Part shown: one piece after another, positions 21,654-32,128 of the stretch
Position numbering within the stretch: position 1 is the first letter of the stretch
How the letters are laid out: the number at the start of each line of letters is the position of its first letter
Source: an uncultured bacterium
Lineage (GTDB): Bacteria > Chloroflexota > Anaerolineae > J036 > Brachytrichaceae
Length of the DNA stretch: 32,128 nt
Assembly: GCA_903921365.1 (NCBI GenBank)
Contig: CAIXPS010000287.1
Location: 1 to 32,128, forward strand
Direction: 5' to 3'
Made by a program: the position numbers and the translations under genes
Notes under the pieces: model-generated
What the model saw: only the letters and a program-made list of their open reading frames with translations
Told to the model about the DNA's origin: nothing
The model's database searches: none

Positions 21654-23207
21654 ATGGCAGAAATTTTCTACAAGCCAACTGGCGCCTGGGCAGCCGACTT
21701 TATCCCGTTTTACAAAGACGGCAGATTTCGTTTGTTCTACCTGCAGGACTGGCGAAACATTCCTGAACATGGTGAAGGCACGCCGTGGTATCAGATCAGC
21801 ACGGATGATCTGGTTCACTTTGAAGAGCATGGTGAAATGCTTGCGCGCGGGACTAAAGACGAACAGGATCTATATGTGTTCACCGGATCGGTTATCGAGG
21901 AGTTGGGGCAGTCCCAAGGGCGCTTGGCGTCAAAGCAATCCCATGGGGACTCAAAGCAGTCCCATAGGGATTCCAAGCAATACCACATCTTCTATACCGG
22001 CCACAACCCCTACTTTCGGGCTCAAGGCAAACCCGAACAGGGCGTCATGCACGCTGTCAGCGACGATTTGCTGACCTGGCGCAAGATACCAGAGGATACT
22101 TTCTACGCGCCGCAGGCGCTTGGCGTCCAAGCAGTCGCGTATGAAATGCACGATTGGCGCGATCCGTTTGTATTCTGGAACCCGGACGCAGGGGAATACT
22201 GGATGCTGCTGGCGGCGCGCTCGAAGTCTGGCCCATCCAGGCGCAGAGGATGCACCGCCTTATGCGCTTCGCGCGATCTGAAACACTGGGAAGTAAGGGA
22301 CCCCCTGTATGCGCCCGGGCTGTATTACACGCACGAGTGCCCGGACTTATTCAAAATGGGGGAGTGGTGGTATCTCGTATTCTCTGAATTCAGTGAGCGT
22401 CTCGTGACCCGCTACCGAATGGCGCGCAGTCTGTCAGGGCCATGGCTGACGCCGCCGGATGATCAGTTCGACGGTCGCGCCTTCTATGCTGCCAAGACCA
22501 CGTCAGACGGATCAAGGCGCTATCTGTTCGGCTGGAACCCAACACGTGAGGGAAACAAGGACTACGGATCGTGGCACTGGGGCGGCAACCTCGTCGTTCA
22601 TGAGATCAACCAACGCCCGGATGGAACGCTCTCGGTGTGCGTTCCTGAGGCGGTGGATCGCGCATTTGGCATACCTACACCTGCAACGCTCCAGCCTGGG
22701 CTTGGAACCTGCACGGCCACTTCGAATGGAATTCGCTTGGATGGGACTGGAACCTTCGCTTGCGCGGTCGGCTCTGTCATGCCAGAGCAATGCAGGATCG
22801 ACGCCGAGATCGTAGTATCGGACGCAGCCCGATTCGCAGGCATCATGCTGCGGGTCAGTGACGACCTTGAGAAGGCATACTACATCCGCATCGAGCCGTC
22901 ACGCAACCGGCTCGTATTTGATATGTGGCCGCGACCCGGCGATGTCCCATTCATGCCTGAACTCGAACGACCGCTGGTTGCTTTGACGCCAAGCGCCCGT
23001 GGGACTGCTTTGAGTCCCGATCAAGCTGTCCTACCCGGACACCATGCTTACAAGTTGCAGGTTTACGTTGAAGGCACTGTGTGCGTGGTATATGTTAATG
23101 GCGAAGTCGCGATGAGCACGCGGCTCTACAACCTCCCGCAGGGTAAATGGGGCGTGTTTGTCGAAGACGGCGTTGCTGAGTTTCACCATGTGCAACACAC
23201 AATGTGA
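21654..23207 (+). CDS. GH32-like glycoside hydrolase with in-frame repeat insertions
   Basis: A 517-aa five-bladed beta-propeller glycosidase with a C-terminal beta-sandwich. The three GH32-type acidic motifs are visible: D15 in WAADFIPFY (nucleophile position), the DWRDPFVFW motif (about 167-175) and HECPDLF (about 225-231, acid/base Glu). Family members act on beta-fructosides and related sugars, but this branch is divergent. No signal peptide, so cytoplasmic. Two dispersed repeats are inserted in frame: residues 87-109, splitting what reads as VIEELGQ|YHIFYTGHN, and about 443-458 in a loop of the beta-sandwich. A possible decayed third lies at 22115-22136. GGAG lies 8 bases before ATG 21654. 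First gene of a four-gene overlapping operon. Confidence 0.85.
   Translation: MAEIFYKPTGAWAADFIPFYKDGRFRLFYLQDWRNIPEHGEGTPWYQISTDDLVHFEEHGEMLARGTKDEQDLYVFTGSVIEELGQSQGRLASKQSHGDSKQSHRDSKQYHIFYTGHNPYFRAQGKPEQGVMHAVSDDLLTWRKIPEDTFYAPQALGVQAVAYEMHDWRDPFVFWNPDAGEYWMLLAARSKSGPSRRRGCTALCASRDLKHWEVRDPLYAPGLYYTHECPDLFKMGEWWYLVFSEFSERLVTRYRMARSLSGPWLTPPDDQFDGRAFYAAKTTSDGSRRYLFGWNPTREGNKDYGSWHWGGNLVVHEINQRPDGTLSVCVPEAVDRAFGIPTPATLQPGLGTCTATSNGIRLDGTGTFACAVGSVMPEQCRIDAEIVVSDAARFAGIMLRVSDDLEKAYYIRIEPSRNRLVFDMWPRPGDVPFMPELERPLVALTPSARGTALSPDQAVLPGHHAYKLQVYVEGTVCVVYVNGEVAMSTRLYNLPQGKWGVFVEDGVAEFHHVQHTM
21912..21980 (-). repeat. In-frame palindromic dispersed repeat, 27+21+21 array, copy 2
   Basis: Exactly 69 bases (23 codons) made of one 27-base unit and two 21-base units head to tail, on the strand opposite to the gene. 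In the gene it is read as SQGRLASKQ, SHGDSKQ and SHRDSKQ. Removing it leaves VIEELGQYHIFYTGHNP, an uninterrupted beta-strand junction of the propeller, so the boundaries are unusually clear. Confidence 0.9.
22115..22136 (-). repeat. Possible decayed dispersed repeat unit, copy 3
   Basis: GGCGCTTGGCGTCCAAGC followed by AGTC matches the core of the 27-base unit with one substitution, in the same orientation as copy 2. It is read as ALGVQAV, just before the conserved HDWRDPF motif. The match is short and could be native sequence, so this call is tentative. Confidence 0.4.
22980..23027 (+). repeat. In-frame palindromic dispersed repeat, 27+21 array, copy 4
   Basis: A full 27-base unit (22980-23006, starting GCTTTGACGCCAAGC, ending CGTGGGACT) is followed by a 21-base unit whose second half has decayed (23007-23027). 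It has the opposite orientation to copy 2 in the same gene and is read in a different peptide register as ALTPSARGT and ALSPDQA. It lies between PELERPLV and VLPGHHAYKL, a surface loop of the C-terminal beta-sandwich. Confidence 0.88.
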
Positions 23208-24240
23208 CCAGCTTGTGCTGGCAGTGGATGGAGGCCAAACCCATTCAATGGCCGTGATTGCCCGCGCGGATGGCGTCGTGCTGGGCGCCGGTAAAGGCGG
23301 GCCCGCCAACCACTTTCTGGAGGAAGGTGGGCCGCAGCGATTCACATCCTCTATGCGGTCGTGCATCGAGGGCGCTTTTAACAGTGCTGGTTTGCAGCTC
23401 GGCCCTGTCTGTGCTTCTCACTATTGCCTGACTGGCGTGCATGAACAGATGGAACAGATACTGCAGGCGATTGCGCCAACGCCACCTCAGTCCCACGGGC
23501 GCTTGGCGTCAAAGCAGTCCCACGGGGACTCAAAGCAGTCAATTCAACCCGATCGGCTTGCGTCGTTATGGGGCGCCACACAGAAGCGACCGGCAGTGTT
23601 AATCCTGTCAGGAACAGGCTCGATTGCTTATGGCATCGCGACGACCGCCGCCAACAGCAAAGAGGCAGTTTCCGGAGGGTGGGGCTACGCTATGGGCGAC
23701 GAAGGCAGCGCTTCGTGGATCACCCCGCAAGCACTGTCGGCAGCCACTCGCGCAATAGATGGTTGTGGAGCAGCGACGATGCTCAGCAGCCAGATCCCCG
23801 CTTACTTTGGCGTTGAGACGCTTCACCAGCTTCATCCGTTGATTTATACGCACCAGATTGATCGCGTCAAGCTGGCTGAGATTGCCAGCGTTGTGAGTCG
23901 CTGCGCAGAGTTGGGTGATGCTGTGGCGATTGGAATACTGGCCGACGCTGCGCGCCACCTGGGCAACGCGGTAATCGCGGTGATCAGAGCACTCGGCCTG
24001 GAGGACAAACGCGTAATCGTAACCAGCGCCGGCGGCGTCTTCAAAGCCGGCGCGCTTCTTGTTGAGCCGATGATGCAAACTGTTCACGGTGTAAACTCGC
24101 TCGCGGAGTATGTTGCGCCACGGTATCCCCCAATCATCGGAGCGCTCCTCCTGGCGATACAATCCTGTGGAATGACGTTGACCGATTCAATCTACACAAA
24201 TATCGAGGCTACATCATCACTATGGACAAAGATCAAGTGA
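23188..24240 (+). CDS. BadF/BadG-type sugar kinase (NAGK-like)
   Basis: An ASKHA-fold kinase of 350 aa related to N-acetylglucosamine kinase. Motifs are LAVDGGQTHS (11-20, phosphate 1), LILSGTGSIAYG (138-149, phosphate 2), GGWGYAMGDEGS (163-174) and the adenosine motif VTSAGGVFKAG. It would phosphorylate an amino sugar such as GlcNAc or ManNAc, fitting the NanE gene that follows and overlaps it by 19 bases. ATG 23188 overlaps the GH32 gene by 20 bases; the ribosome-binding site is weak and translational coupling is likely. A 48-base dispersed repeat is inserted at residues 102-117, just before the strand leading to LASLWGA, where related kinases carry an active-site Asp, so its effect on activity deserves attention. 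Confidence 0.88.
   Translation: MCNTQCDQLVLAVDGGQTHSMAVIARADGVVLGAGKGGPANHFLEEGGPQRFTSSMRSCIEGAFNSAGLQLGPVCASHYCLTGVHEQMEQILQAIAPTPPQSHGRLASKQSHGDSKQSIQPDRLASLWGATQKRPAVLILSGTGSIAYGIATTAANSKEAVSGGWGYAMGDEGSASWITPQALSAATRAIDGCGAATMLSSQIPAYFGVETLHQLHPLIYTHQIDRVKLAEIASVVSRCAELGDAVAIGILADAARHLGNAVIAVIRALGLEDKRVIVTSAGGVFKAGALLVEPMMQTVHGVNSLAEYVAPRYPPIIGALLLAIQSCGMTLTDSIYTNIEATSSLWTKIK
23491..23538 (-). repeat. In-frame palindromic dispersed repeat, 27+21 array, copy 5
   Basis: Exactly 48 bases (16 codons): one 27-base and one 21-base unit on the strand opposite to the gene, read as SHGRLASKQSHGDSKQ. It is nearly identical to the first 48 bases of copy 2 in the neighbouring gene, with the same orientation and peptide register. 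It is the least decayed array in the window. Confidence 0.92.
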
Positions 24241-26863: not shown

Positions 26864-28447
26864 TCAATTACAGAAACTTTCGAGATGATGCATAAAGTGC
26901 CGCTGCAAATCTGCGTAGTGCATTTCCTCGTTTTGCCTCAGGACCGTTTTGATGTCGGCGCCATATCTTGAAAGAATCGATCCGAAGCAAACGTGCAGCA
27001 TCTGGCGCGCGTCAAACTGATCAAGCACCGTTTGCGGATCGCTAACGCCGCTTAGCTGGTTATCCGGCGCTTTCGCGGGGTCTGCTGAGACATGATAGGA
27101 AGCGCGGTCTTCGGGGTAACGCTCATAGGCTAATGCGTATATGTCTTTGAAGAGAGTGCTATTGGCGCGAGCCACAGTCCGCAGTGCTTCAAGATAACTC
27201 GTCCCTGCGGTTTTAAGATGCACATACATCTCGTGCCCAGCATGCTGCGCCACCAGCGGGTATATGCTGAACTTATCGGAACCAGAATGGATGCTTAGCT
27301 TATACGGCCCCCATTCCCGGGCGATTTGCGCATGTCCCGAACAGTCCCTGTCAAATGCTTCTAGATCGCCGATATAGTCGACGCCTTTCTCGAAGCGCCC
27401 GACAAAGCGGGGAGCGAGGCTGACCCATTCAACGGAGAGACGGCGAAGTTCCCCAGCGATCATAGTGTGCTCGGCGTGGGTTGTCGGCTGCTCTGTTTCA
27501 TCTACCGACACTTCAACCTCAAACTGTTGGGCAAGCCTCCCGTTCATCTGCGACTTGAGATAGCGATACAGGGTCGCCACATGCGCGATAGCGCGACCAT
27601 ATTTGACAAAGGCCCGCTGCACGATTGCGGGTTCGAATCGCGGCGTGTAACGAGCCAACGTCTCAGAAGAGGTGGTTTCCAGATCGCCCCATGGCAGATC
27701 ATCAAACGCAGACGTGGAATAGGTGTTATTCACGTAAGCGCCTGGGTCGAACGTATAGAACGTAAAGCCAGCCGCGACGCATCGGTCAATGTCTTCGGTG
27801 GTTTTCAAGTGGTCGGCGTCTGCGCCAAAACCCGCTTGCCAGCCCTCCTCGAACGCGCCCCACATGGCGTCATCCATGACATCGGTCGGCGTGCGGTTTG
27901 TCCGCGCCATTTCTCGGATCGACTGTTGCGCCAAGATAGGAGCAATCCCACTGCTCGGATGCCAAGCGCCCGTGGGGCTGAGACGGACGGCGCGTAGATG
28001 GCCGGGGGTGGCGAGGCCAAGCCGGTCGCCACATCCGACGGTTGTGCGCGTGCCGAATGTGACTGGAGTCAGCCAGTCGAATTGTTCGCGCAGGAACGCG
28101 GCTGTACTGCTGGAAACGGGCAGCAGCGTGAGCTGCAGGTCTTGCCCGTCATACGATACCGACCGTGACTCGCTGTTGTCAGGCACATCAGTAACTGGTT
28201 CTGTCCCGATTATCGCCAGTTTTTTCTGCAAGCCTTCACGAATCAGGGAGTACACGCCGCCCTGGCCTAACGTGATTGACCGCGGGTACACATACGCGCC
28301 AGTAATGGCGCCTAATTCAGCCGCGATGCCTGAGGCAACTGACTCTTCAAGCGGTTCCGCCGTCCCACGAGCGCTTGGCATCAAAGCAGTAGGCTGACTG
28401 CCCGAACCGTTGGCTTTGGTATGGTCTGCGAACTCTATTAATCTCAT
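26864..28447 (-). CDS. uxaE: Tagaturonate/fructuronate epimerase
   Basis: A 527-aa protein of the UxaE family, which interconverts D-tagaturonate and D-fructuronate in hexuronate breakdown. Recognisable stretches are VGCGDRLGLATPGHL, IAPILAQQSIREM, FTFYTFDPGAYVN, KLSIHSGSDKFSIYP and HLKTAGTSYLEALR. Many conserved His and Asp residues suit its metal dependence. Two dispersed repeats lie inside: near residues 21-29 (ALMPSARGT) and near 157-165 (SPTGAWHPS, between GHLRAVR and IAPILAQQ, adjacent to conserved sequence). The gene ends 19 bases before the SDR start, so the two form an operon. Upstream AAGGG supports the start. Downstream enzymes UxuA, KdgK and KdgA are not in the window. Confidence 0.92.
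   Translation of the reverse strand: MRLIEFADHTKANGSGSQPTALMPSARGTAEPLEESVASGIAAELGAITGAYVYPRSITLGQGGVYSLIREGLQKKLAIIGTEPVTDVPDNSESRSVSYDGQDLQLTLLPVSSSTAAFLREQFDWLTPVTFGTRTTVGCGDRLGLATPGHLRAVRLSPTGAWHPSSGIAPILAQQSIREMARTNRTPTDVMDDAMWGAFEEGWQAGFGADADHLKTTEDIDRCVAAGFTFYTFDPGAYVNNTYSTSAFDDLPWGDLETTSSETLARYTPRFEPAIVQRAFVKYGRAIAHVATLYRYLKSQMNGRLAQQFEVEVSVDETEQPTTHAEHTMIAGELRRLSVEWVSLAPRFVGRFEKGVDYIGDLEAFDRDCSGHAQIAREWGPYKLSIHSGSDKFSIYPLVAQHAGHEMYVHLKTAGTSYLEALRTVARANSTLFKDIYALAYERYPEDRASYHVSADPAKAPDNQLSGVSDPQTVLDQFDARQMLHVCFGSILSRYGADIKTVLRQNEEMHYADLQRHFMHHLESFCN
27953..27979 (+). repeat. In-frame palindromic dispersed repeat, 27-base unit, copy 6
   Basis: GCTCGGATGCCAAGC followed by GCCCGTGGGGCT matches the 27-base unit with a few substitutions. 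In uxaE it is read on the minus strand as SPTGAWHPS, a register different from copies 2 and 5, which have the same orientation relative to their genes. It separates GHLRAVR from IAPILAQQSIRE, two conserved UxaE segments. Confidence 0.8.
28361..28387 (-). repeat. In-frame palindromic dispersed repeat, 27-base unit, copy 7
   Basis: On the minus strand it starts GCTTTGATGCCAAGC and ends CGTGGGACG, matching the 27-base unit with three substitutions. It is read as ALMPSARGT near the uxaE N-terminus, in the same register as copy 4 in the GH32-like gene. Copies 6 and 7 in one gene have opposite orientations. Confidence 0.88.
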
Positions 28448-28531: not shown

Positions 28532-29749
28532 TTATTCGAGAGTATTCATCTGAATCACACCGCGCCTGCCATTCACCCGCCAATCAGGATCCTGTTGTGT
28601 CAGGCGCTCAGCGGCGCCTTCTGGCAGACCAACGATGATCTCAGCTTTAAGTGTGCGCAAGGCAACGAACGGCGCAGGGAAGTAATCGGTCGCTTTAGCA
28701 AATGAAGTTGCCGGCAGCCAGCAGGCGTCGCTCAGCAAGCGCCGGTAATTGGCATCCCCCTTGAGAATCACGAGATTGGCTCTGCCTAAACTCGCCCGCA
28801 GATCAGGTGGCATCTGCGCGTAAAAAAGGCATGTGGTGAAGAACCAGTGTGAGGTCAAGACAAGCCTGCCCGCATCTATGTAATGTTCCAATCGCATTCC
28901 CAAACTGTGAAGCGGCTCAGGGCTCTTCTGCATGACAGCAATAGTTGAGCGCATATCGCTCACCATCGCATCCGACACGAAAAATGGCTGTTCTTTCAGG
29001 ACCATCTCAACTCGCTCTACAAGCCCACAGCTCAATAACTCGTCGACCAGCGCCAGATCCATGAGTAACTCGGTGCCTGCGTTGTCCGTGATCACTGTGA
29101 CCTGGCGACACGCTGGCGAGAGAAGCTTATCAAGCACTATTGCGCTGTCGTCTACCAGCAGGTTGGCCGATGGCTCGGCGTCCCACATAACACCCGCAGT
29201 GCCAAGCGTGTTGGCGACGTTGTAACTCAGGTCCGTGCGATTACCCCACAGGCTATTATGTAGTAACGCCGTTATACGCGCCGGTTGTTCCTGGGGTAGG
29301 GCGGTGAGTTTTATCGCCAGAGTGTGCGGCGCAGCGTCAGGCGCAAGTTCAGACATCTTTTGTGGCGTATACGGGTCGATCAGATATCGTTCGCCAGGCT
29401 GGAAGTAATGACAGGCTTCCAGAACCCGCCGGTAGAAATAAGACTCGGCCCAGTACCACGGCGCTTCCAACCAGGATTTCCCAATCCACGGCTCCGAAGC
29501 CGTGTTCCAGAACATTTGATCTATTGCCTGTTCGGTGATTGGGTTTATATGCCCGGACATGATCTCATTGCGCAGTGAGCGCATCGCTGAAAGAACCTCA
29601 CTCGGAAACCGGTTTAGTTCCACGATCTCGTCAAGAATGCGGGGAACGCGCACTTTGAAGGTGTTATGGGCGAAAGAACCAGGTTCGGAGGTCATCAGTG
29701 GCCCTGGGTGTTTGAGCGAACTGATCGTAGTTGCGGGTATATGAAACAT
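28532..29749 (-). CDS. ARMT1/DUF89-family damage-control phosphatase-like protein
   Basis: A 405-aa protein of the DUF89/ARMT1 family, metal-dependent enzymes that remove phosphate from damaged or excess phosphometabolites such as fructose phosphates. Two signatures stand out: VTVITDNAGTELLMDLAL (217-234), with the metal-binding Asp-Asn, and VILKGDANYRRLL (327-339), followed by PFVALRTLKAE. The Met at 29749 gives the usual N-terminus; a longer frame upstream runs through palindromic promoter DNA and is unlikely to be translated. It is the first gene before uxaE and the SDR on the same strand, 84 bases from uxaE, so it may clear sugar phosphates in this pathway. Catalytic function is inferred from family only. 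Confidence 0.85.
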   Translation of the reverse strand: MFHIPATTISSLKHPGPLMTSEPGSFAHNTFKVRVPRILDEIVELNRFPSEVLSAMRSLRNEIMSGHINPITEQAIDQMFWNTASEPWIGKSWLEAPWYWAESYFYRRVLEACHYFQPGERYLIDPYTPQKMSELAPDAAPHTLAIKLTALPQEQPARITALLHNSLWGNRTDLSYNVANTLGTAGVMWDAEPSANLLVDDSAIVLDKLLSPACRQVTVITDNAGTELLMDLALVDELLSCGLVERVEMVLKEQPFFVSDAMVSDMRSTIAVMQKSPEPLHSLGMRLEHYIDAGRLVLTSHWFFTTCLFYAQMPPDLRASLGRANLVILKGDANYRRLLSDACWLPATSFAKATDYFPAPFVALRTLKAEIIVGLPEGAAERLTQQDPDWRVNGRRGVIQMNTLE

Positions 29750-29795
29750 GAGTGTTGGGGTTTCCTTTTTGTAGATATGTGCACAAGGATAACAG

Positions 29796-29830
29796 TTGCG
29801 CAGTGAAAGTGTGCGCTCCACACTGCGCAA
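29796..29830. promoter_or_regulatory. Inverted repeat upstream of the ARMT1-like gene
   Basis: TTGCGCAGTG (29796-29805) and CACTGCGCAA (29821-29830) are perfect 10-base arms with a 15-base spacer. They lie in the gap between divergent genes (29749 minus, 29910 plus). It may be a two-half-site operator or an RNA hairpin in the ARMT1 leader. Confidence 0.5.
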
Positions 29831-29909: not shown

Positions 29910-30503
29910 ATGAAACACATGACTTCGTTTCGGCATCCAGGGTTAGGCTTATGGAGTGACACCAAGGCTTGGTTATCGCTTCTGATCATACCGGCAGGAC
30001 TGGCTATCGGCATCTTTTTATTTAGCCGGGCAAATCGTAAATCGCAACGTGAAACCGCCAGCCAACGAGAGAAGATATATCGGGATATAGCATCGGATAG
30101 AGCGCAGGAAGCCTTGTTGCAATCCTACCTTGATCGGATGACGGATCTGCTTCTAGAGAACCATCTACGTGATTCTGGCAAGGATTCCGAAGTGCTGGCC
30201 GTCGCTAAAGCCTGGACAGTCACTGTACTGCGAAGATTAGACCAGACGCGCACAACAAGCCTGCTGACGTTCCTGACGGAATCTAAGCTGATAAGCACAC
30301 AGGATACGATACGGTTGCTGAAGGGCACTGACCTGAGTGGGGCCGACCTGCGCAGCGCCGATCTACGTGGGGCAGACTTGCGTGAGACGGACCTGAGCAT
30401 GGCCAGGTATGATGCCAACACCCGATGGCCTGAAGGTTTCACACCACCGTCTGAAGCGGTCAGGATCGAGAACAGCGAAGGGGAAAATTCAATCACCATA
30501 TGA
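29910..30503 (+). CDS. Membrane-anchored pentapeptide-repeat protein
   Basis: A 197-aa protein with one membrane helix near the N-terminus (about residues 20-38, AWLSLLIIPAGLAIGIFLF). A charged, probably helical stretch (about 40-85) and a helical domain follow, then a short pentapeptide array (about 140-165) of A(D/N)Lxx units: GADLRSADLRGADLR. The close YDANTRWPEGFTPP is common in such proteins. Five or six repeats are too few for a DNA-mimic quadrilateral helix like Qnr, so an adaptor or sensor role is more likely; function unknown. It overlaps the next MFS gene by 4 bases (ATGA), so the two are coupled. Confidence 0.75.
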   Translation: MKHMTSFRHPGLGLWSDTKAWLSLLIIPAGLAIGIFLFSRANRKSQRETASQREKIYRDIASDRAQEALLQSYLDRMTDLLLENHLRDSGKDSEVLAVAKAWTVTVLRRLDQTRTTSLLTFLTESKLISTQDTIRLLKGTDLSGADLRSADLRGADLRETDLSMARYDANTRWPEGFTPPSEAVRIENSEGENSITI

Positions 30504-31769
30504 AGGCGACGAATGCCACATCTCTCTCGCTGCAATTACGCCTGGCTAAGTTAGGCGCGGGGTTCAACGCATTGCGGTATCGTAACTACCGGCTGTACTG
30601 GGTCGGCCAGTTGATTTCAATCATCGGCACCTGGATGCAGTCCACTGCCCAGGCGTGGCTGGTTTTTCAAATGACTGGTTCCGCATTTTCGCTGGGGCTT
30701 GTTACGACATTACAGTTTCTGCCGGTAATGCTCTTCTCACTCATCGGCGGTGTCATTGTCGACCGCCTGCCCAAGCGCCGGCTGATGATGATCACCCAGT
30801 CTCTCCTGCTCATCCAGGCAGCCATTTTCGGCGGACTGGTTGCATCCGGGGCAATACAGATCTGGCATATTTATCTCCTGGCCGCTTTGCAGGGGATGGT
30901 GAATGTTGTCGATAATCCCGCGCGCCAGGCATTCCCGATCGAACTCGTCGCGCGGGAAGACACCGGGAATGCTGTCGCCCTGAATTCGATGCTTTTTAAC
31001 GGCGCCCGCATTATCGGCCCCGCGATTGCGGGTATTGTCATCGCCACTGCCGGCGTGGCCCCGGCGCTGTTTCTGAATGCCGTCAGCTTCATCGCTGTCA
31101 TTTTTGCATTGGCTATGATGAATCCCAAAGGCTTCTATGTGCGCCCGGTACGCCAAAAACAAGCTGCTCTCAGCGACCTGGTTGAAGGTCTCTCCTATGC
31201 GCGCCGAAGCACCGTAGTGCTCACCATACTCATCGTCATTGGAGTTATCGGCACATTCGGATACAACTTCAGCACAGTGCTGCCGTTGATAGGTGGTTTT
31301 GTTCTGCATACTTGGCGCAGCCGGCTTCGGCGCATTATCGACTGCGTTGGGAATTGGTTCTTTCGCAGGGGCATTGTTTGTCGCTTATGCCCGGAACATA
31401 TCCATCAGGCGCCTTTTCATTGGTTCAACCGCCTTCAGTCTGCTGCTAGGAGCATTATCACTCTCCAATGCATTCATACTGTCGGAAGGGATACTAATCG
31501 TCCTGGGATTTGCTGGTATTCTGTTCACTACCACCGCCAACACGCTACTGCAAACCAGTGTGCCTGATGAATTGCGCGGCAGGATAATGAGCCTTTATGT
31601 TCTTCTATTCATCGGCAGCACACCCATAGGCGCTTTTTTAACCGGCACTCTCGCGACTGCCATCGGTGTGCAGGCAGCATTGGCAATCGAAGCTGGCGTG
31701 TGCATCATTGGCCTGGCAATAGCCTTGGTCTACTATCGGACACACATTGCGCGCACCCAACCTTCCTGA
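30500..31769 (+). pseudogene. MFS transporter (EntS-like), frameshifted
   Basis: A major facilitator of the MFS_3/EntS type, about 423 aa if repaired. The N-terminal half runs from MKATNATS through RNYRLYWVGQLISIIGTWMQ, motif A-like GGVIVDRLPKRR, and on to NFSTVLPLIGGFVLH. At about 31308-31313 the frame shifts by one base: the frame above continues as TWRSRLRR to a stop at 31567, while the natural continuation (GAAGFGALSTALGIGSFAGA) lies in another frame to 31769. One extra base in CATACTTGG explains it. The second half is otherwise intact (helices 8-12), so the break is recent or a sequencing error. Programmed frameshifting is less likely because no slippery heptamer is present. Confidence 0.85.
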
Positions 31770-31829
31770 TAGTCAAACCCCATTAGGATTGATAATGAAG
31801 CGAACGATACTGCTTGGAGTACCTTTGGT

Positions 31830-32128
31830 ATGGCGGCAAAAACTGCTTTGAGTCCCCATGGGATTGCTTTGAATCCCAGTGGGGCTGCTTTGAGTCCCCA
31901 TGGGGCGGATTTAGTGACTGAACGCGCTACGCGGGCGCGCCGGTATGTGGAGGCATCCAAATCGGAGAACACGCGCCGCTCGTACGAGTCGCACATGAAC
32001 GATTTCAAGGCGTTTTGCGCTGAACGCGGCTACGCTGCGCTCCCTGCCCTTCCCGCTGCTGTCGTGGACTACCTTACCTTCCTGGCAGATATCGGCGCGA
32101 AGTTTTCAACCATTCAGGTAAAGGCGTC
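31830..32128 (+). CDS. Probable tyrosine recombinase, N-terminal part (cut by window edge)
   Basis: An open frame running off the window (99 codons visible). After the repeat-encoded N-terminus it reads RYVEASKSENTRRSYESHMN, then FKAFCAERGYAALPALPAAVVDYLTFLA. This is the pattern of the SAM-like core-binding domain of phage-type integrases: a helix with N-T-R-R-Y, then FxxFC and a helix with VVxYLxxLA. The catalytic domain would lie beyond the window. The only ATG that fits is 31830, with GGAG at 31816-31819; there is no other start after the in-frame stop at 31770. Residues 5-26 are entirely encoded by three 21-base dispersed repeat units. Confidence 0.78.
   Translation, partial: MAAKTALSPHGIALNPSGAALSPHGADLVTERATRARRYVEASKSENTRRSYESHMNDFKAFCAERGYAALPALPAAVVDYLTFLADIGAKFSTIQVKA
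31845..31907 (+). repeat. In-frame palindromic dispersed repeat, three 21-base units, copy 8
   Basis: Three consecutive 21-base units (31845-31865, 31866-31886, 31887-31907), each starting GCTTTGA and containing CCC...TGGG, form the N-terminal peptide TALSPHGIALNPSGAALSPHGA-type segment of the recombinase. A more decayed unit, GCTTGGAGTACC, lies just upstream at 31812-31832 and includes the ribosome-binding site and the start codon. AGTCCCCATGGGG in the third unit is nearly a perfect palindrome. Confidence 0.88.

Follow-up and report, generated by a model that had tools for sequence, protein, structure and literature searches.

The locus and its recombinase gene

The window, a complete contig (C287) of 32,128 bp from a 6.88-Mb draft genome, ends inside an open reading frame that begins at ATG 31830 and continues past the contig end. 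A short repeat array lies at the 5' end of this frame, and over the ~70 aa that follow the array the product shares 84% and 74% identity with orthologs from two genomes of the same genus, G009 and G007, respectively. The full-length G009 ortholog matches PF00589 (7.5e-19) and PF02899 (1.1e-5), and an N-terminal SAM-like domain and a catalytic domain with R..H-x-x-R..H..Y were found in the full-length orthologs of both genomes, the window copy being truncated by the contig end. By orthology, the product is a predicted tyrosine recombinase, which confirms the identity that had been called probable from the window alone. The remainder of the gene, with the catalytic domain to which the contig was to be extended, is absent from all other contigs of its own genome and is unassembled. 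The G009 recombinase scored well under the curated cut-offs for XerC, XerD, XerA, and integron integrase (22.9 against a cut-off of 265 for the NCBIfam integron-integrase model), and we therefore name the protein only tyrosine recombinase. That the recombinase came from a phage or a plasmid was considered and dropped; there was no phage match, none in viral contigs, and one distant plasmid match.

In both sister genomes the recombinase gene lies divergently beside an ARMT1-like gene, followed in G009 by a uxaE-like gene (Table 1). The conserved neighborhood in G009 and G007 indicates that the recombinase is a resident gene that did not come in recently with the repeat. The window keeps the order of the three genes, but pentapeptide-repeat and MFS genes (29910-31769) separate the ARMT1-like gene from the recombinase, which are direct neighbors in G009 and G007. 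The MFS transporter is spread over two frames (30500-31567 and 31293-31769) and looks frameshifted near 31310 or mis-assembled.

Table 1. Coordinates of genes and element copies in the window
Feature	Position	Strand	Basis or remark
uxaE-like gene (tagaturonate epimerase family)	26864..28447	-	order identical in G009
ARMT1-like gene	28532..29830	-	adjoins recombinase, divergent, in G009 and G007
Tyrosine recombinase (predicted), N-terminal part only	31830..32128	+	orthologs in G009 and G007; contig end cuts gene
Diverged element copy over start codon	31809..31833	+	covariance model, 33 bits, E 0.0037; was in training set
Element copy 1 of in-frame array	31842..31866	+	TRF, consensus, covariance model
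Element copy 2; stem ATT/AAT, covarying with ACT/AGT	31863..31887	+	consensus, covariation
Element copy 3	31884..31908	+	consensus, covariance model
Element array in frame in GH32 gene; net +69 bp versus G009 and G007	21925..21985	-	ortholog comparison, TRF
Second element cluster in same GH32 gene; net +51 bp	22977..23018	+	ortholog comparison
Element pair in frame in BadF-type ATPase/kinase gene; net +48 bp	23504..23542	-	ortholog comparison

A 63-bp insertion near the start of the gene

TRF placed a tandem array with a 21-bp period and 3.0 copies at 31843-31906 (score 93), and the three 21-base units that had been predicted at the recombinase start were thus recovered, spanning 31842-31908. 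In the ortholog alignment, G009 reads MPTKSAITTERATR where the window reads MAAKTA[21 aa]..VTERATR. The N-terminus of the G009 protein is MPTKSA-I-TTERATRARR, and that of the window protein is MAAKTA-LSPHGIALNPSGAALSPHGADL-VTERATRARR. The insert relative to G009 is therefore 21 residues, or 63 bp, which is exactly 3 x 21, and is located near codon 7. In the proposed check of related genomes for the repeat at the 5' ends of recombinase genes, G009 and G007 were found to carry the recombinase in the same place without the array.

Because G009 retains MPTKSA, matching MAAKTA, ahead of the insert and is shorter by exactly 63 bp, ATG 31830 is taken as the ancestral start. Were translation to begin instead at the downstream GTG 31914, the array would be an intergenic REP-like array upstream of the coding sequence and the N-terminal peptide an annotation artefact. 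Distant homologs do align only from about residue 29, GGGGCGGA immediately precedes GTG 31914, and N-terminal intragenic REPs may be misannotations (PMC3733652). Orthology nevertheless favors ATG 31830, and we regard the GTG start as improbable.

The original prediction also proposed that a decayed unit lies upstream, and such a unit was found at 31809-31833. It contains the ATG (31830-31832) and a GGAG (31816-31819) 10 nt upstream of it. The unit is one of the 53 training sequences of the covariance model, and its score is consequently not independent; judged without the model, it has 3 mismatches to the consensus and a fully paired second stem. In the sister genomes, a GGAG of their own precedes the recombinase ATG by four or five bases. 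The sequence fits the proposal that the diverged unit may now supply the ribosome-binding site and the start context.

Sequence and pairing of the element

The consensus derived from 53 copies is AYTGCTYTGARTCCCNNTGGGANNG, with 25 columns. Each unit adds 21 bp, of an element conserved over ~25 bp, and contains two short adjacent stems, AYT-GCTYTG-ART and TCCC-NNN-GGGA. The core GCTTTGARTCCC (≤2 mismatches) occurs 14 times in the window against 5.2 expected, and none of 100 shuffles reached 14.

Across the alignment, 95% of the cells in the two stems are paired. Column pair 2-11 switches from C-G (28 sequences) to T-A (20 sequences), with 2 sequences having T-G. When the second sub-family (ATGGCTTTGCATCCC...) was added, pair 3-10 switched from T-A to G-C in 19 sequences. 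Double-change cells numbered 39 versus 15 in shuffles, none of 500 shuffles being as high and all slid controls being far lower; the sub-families were picked by pattern filters, and these covariation counts partly reflect few evolutionary events. One copy in a further genome, G010, shows a fourth stem combination, ACG/CGT. These results indicate that the repeat is a covarying hairpin DNA element.

Single-stranded DNA folding was much more favorable than that of shuffles for a multi-copy array on contig C543 (z -7.4) and only moderately so for the window array (z -1.95). Other arrangements were observed as well. Contig C5 (22 kb) holds more than 10 copies, and overlapping inverted copies on it (L057 14100-14160 and L058 590-640) form a near-perfect palindrome of ~48 bp. 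On contigs C33 (24091-24154) and C124 (224-287) (G000), 21-bp tandem arrays are built from sub-family two (ATGGCYTTGCATCCCCTGCGG), and their second stem is shifted.

In-frame insertions in unrelated genes

Insertions in host genes were identified by comparing the copies codon by codon with sister orthologs, and all compared sisters were without the insert. In addition to the GH32 and BadF-type genes of the window, both named from Pfam matches, an FGGY kinase gene carries a net insert of exactly 21 bp relative to G009 and G007, the L072 gene carries 21 bp relative to G007, G009, and G010, and a DUF255-type gene carries 42 bp (the FGGY and DUF255 names come from reading of the sequences). Net inserts across the hosts were 21, 42, 48, 51, 63, and 69 bp, all multiples of three. 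That the recombinase could simply be another host, one of the two options originally proposed, is thus supported by in-frame inserts in at least five other unrelated genes whose sister orthologs do not have them. The location of most copies in long open reading frames was dropped as evidence for gene targeting. Positions drawn at random from these contigs lie in open frames of ≥200 aa in 96% of cases, and insertion in genes is for this reason established by the ortholog comparisons only. A variant unit that carries GACGCCAAGCGCCC(T/G)TGGGACTG occurs beside normal units at 21925-21938, 22977-23000, and 23504-23517 and on contig C141 near 25430, and is a possible further sub-family.

The recombinase, GH32, BadF-type, and L006 genes all carry the repeat in frame with a period of 21 bp, or seven codons, as would be seen if selection acted on it at the protein level, as a tandem peptide repeat such as a linker or signal. 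However, copies in open frames are found in either orientation and use each of the five frames without a stop, with none in the TGA frame, a pattern that is partly built in because open frames were used for the classification. They consequently encode unrelated peptides, and the conserved features are the stems and their base pairing. The use of both strands and five frames shows a DNA element and no peptide motif, and selection for a peptide repeat is extremely unlikely. The insert in the recombinase protein is probably near-neutral.

Distribution of the repeat and the recombinase

The covariance model matched 60 sites in the own genome, 5 in G010, and 1 in G009, with no match in 25 other genomes of the family. 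Sub-family two, represented in G010 by a variant with compensatory stem changes, was found 38 times in G010, 26 times in the own genome, and twice in G009, with none in G007, G008, or the controls. A strict-motif scan of 395 further genomes of the class gave essentially no matches, and a search across 84,980 species returned only four single exact matches, near the estimated random expectation of about 7. Restriction to one species, as judged from the strict motif alone, was overturned by the G010 and G009 copies detected with the covariance model and the second sub-family. The element was not found in viral contigs. Within the own genome the copies are clustered, and a strict scan of 160 kb sampled from 20 other contigs found none. 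Two unrelated repeats were also encountered, a 47-bp tandem repeat with GACCCATGTGTCGGCCTGACGTTGCGTGGGTAAATGACGTA at L123 (contig C4, 9965-10172) and a GAGATTGGAGATTAGAGATT-type repeat present in many copies on G009 contigs (L100-L119).

The recombinase is distributed differently. It is present in G007 and G009, a C-terminal fragment occurs in G008, and it was not detected in G010, a genome of only 75% completeness. In G007 (92% complete) the recombinase occurs without any repeat of the two sub-families searched, and in G009 it occurs with only about two repeats.

These data bear on the other option of the original prediction, in which the recombinase acts on the repeats. The tyrosine recombinase would then recognize the hairpin and move, invert, or excise it, and the 5' copies would be attachment or autoregulatory sites. 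The evidence for such a role is positional, with four units at the 5' end and one of them over the start codon. Integron-type tyrosine recombinases are also able to act on folded single-stranded sites, but the integron-integrase score of the G009 protein is far under the cut-off. Furthermore, the gene occupies the same position in G009 and G007 but has no array there, G007 has the recombinase without the repeat, and arrays of the same element occur in genes unrelated to recombination. Repeats abundant in a genome lacking the recombinase had been named beforehand as an observation that would argue against the link, and G010 holds ~38 repeats with no recombinase detected in its 75% complete genome. 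On the ortholog, synteny, and distribution evidence, action of the recombinase on the repeat was rejected, and we consider it very unlikely. Because the recombinase and the repeat do not travel together and many unrelated genes are hosts, the best reading is that the recombinase serves the repeat as a host and does not mobilize it, which removes the suspected link between the two.

Proposed origin and spread of the copies

The account that we consider highly probable is that the repeat is a small dispersed hairpin DNA element, three copies of which are inserted in a resident, ordinary tyrosine recombinase gene that serves as a host and not as a mobilizer. Insertion of a 21-bp unit lengthens a gene by seven codons with the frame intact, and copies can therefore reside in genes. 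In the recombinase gene, three copies are inserted near codon 7, and a further copy lies over the start codon and the putative ribosome-binding site. The tandem units may have arisen by local duplication of one inserted unit, through slippage or unequal recombination.

Dispersal would proceed via a single-stranded hairpin. By analogy with what has been proposed for REPs, a HUH (Y1) type transposase acting in trans is a plausible though tentative agent, and replication-linked template switching is only slightly less probable. Three Y1 transposase genes are present in the genome. Regions of about 1.5 kb around the three Y1_Tnp loci contain no copies of the element, and the loci were accordingly discarded as REPtron sources; a REP/RAYT-like route is therefore possible but unsupported by position. 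A more far-reaching proposal is that the 21-bp hairpin is truly mobile and ranks among the smallest such units known; its length and scarcity of stop codons would permit colonization of coding regions, compensatory stem changes would give rise to species-specific sub-families, and the mover would lie outside the known RAYT/REP and MITE systems. We regard this as unlikely, if conceivable.

Comparison with known systems

The literature search retrieved no paper on this repeat and none on short in-frame hairpins in Chloroflexi/Anaerolineae. Among the families compared, mitochondrial byp (translational bypass) hairpins are short hairpins within coding genes. In contrast to these, the inserts here are of frame-preserving length, and no open-frame copy uses the stop frame, as expected if the inserts are translated. 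In comparison with MITEs, which are defined by terminal inverted repeats and a target-site duplication, a hairpin is present here, and divergence of the flanks obscures the exact insertion boundaries and any duplications.

REPs are hairpins of ~20-40 bp that occur in a few to thousands of copies per genome, are often species-specific, and are in some cases intragenic (PMC3733652). Like the RAYT-associated GTAG/CGTC REPs and REPINs, the element described here is a short multicopy hairpin within the 20-40 bp range (25 columns, 60 model matches, and covarying stems). However, its 53-copy consensus contains neither GTAG nor CGTC, and none of the three Y1 loci is flanked by copies within about 1.5 kb. 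The element is not assigned to the REPs because both tags are absent. PARCEL elements are likewise palindromic coding repeats in tandem arrays, but what they encode is a fixed amphipathic repeat of 25 residues, in ORFs that are often membrane-associated (PMC2996958), whereas the repeat here spans seven codons, is read in five frames, and resides in ordinary enzymes.

In insertion behavior the element resembles intragenic REPs and the Rickettsia RPEs (including RPE-4 and RPE-6), the latter being palindromic selfish repeats that lie in frame within unrelated protein genes and are tolerated by the host protein (PMC2229807, PMC3733652). As with RPEs, in-frame insertion in conserved genes together with absence in relatives was found here, for the recombinase, GH32, BadF-type, FGGY, DUF255-type, and L072 genes. 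The RPEs described in PMC2229807 are 105-146 bp long, whereas the element here is 21 bp and often in tandem, and the short RPE-4/6 elements carry a CGTC tag (PMC3733652) that is missing here. Rickettsia and its relatives provide the best-known examples of in-frame selfish palindromes, and the present element is a much shorter, covarying, frame-preserving hairpin in a different bacterium. With many enzyme genes entered and clean empty sites in the sister genomes, the spread of protein-coding hairpins becomes directly testable.
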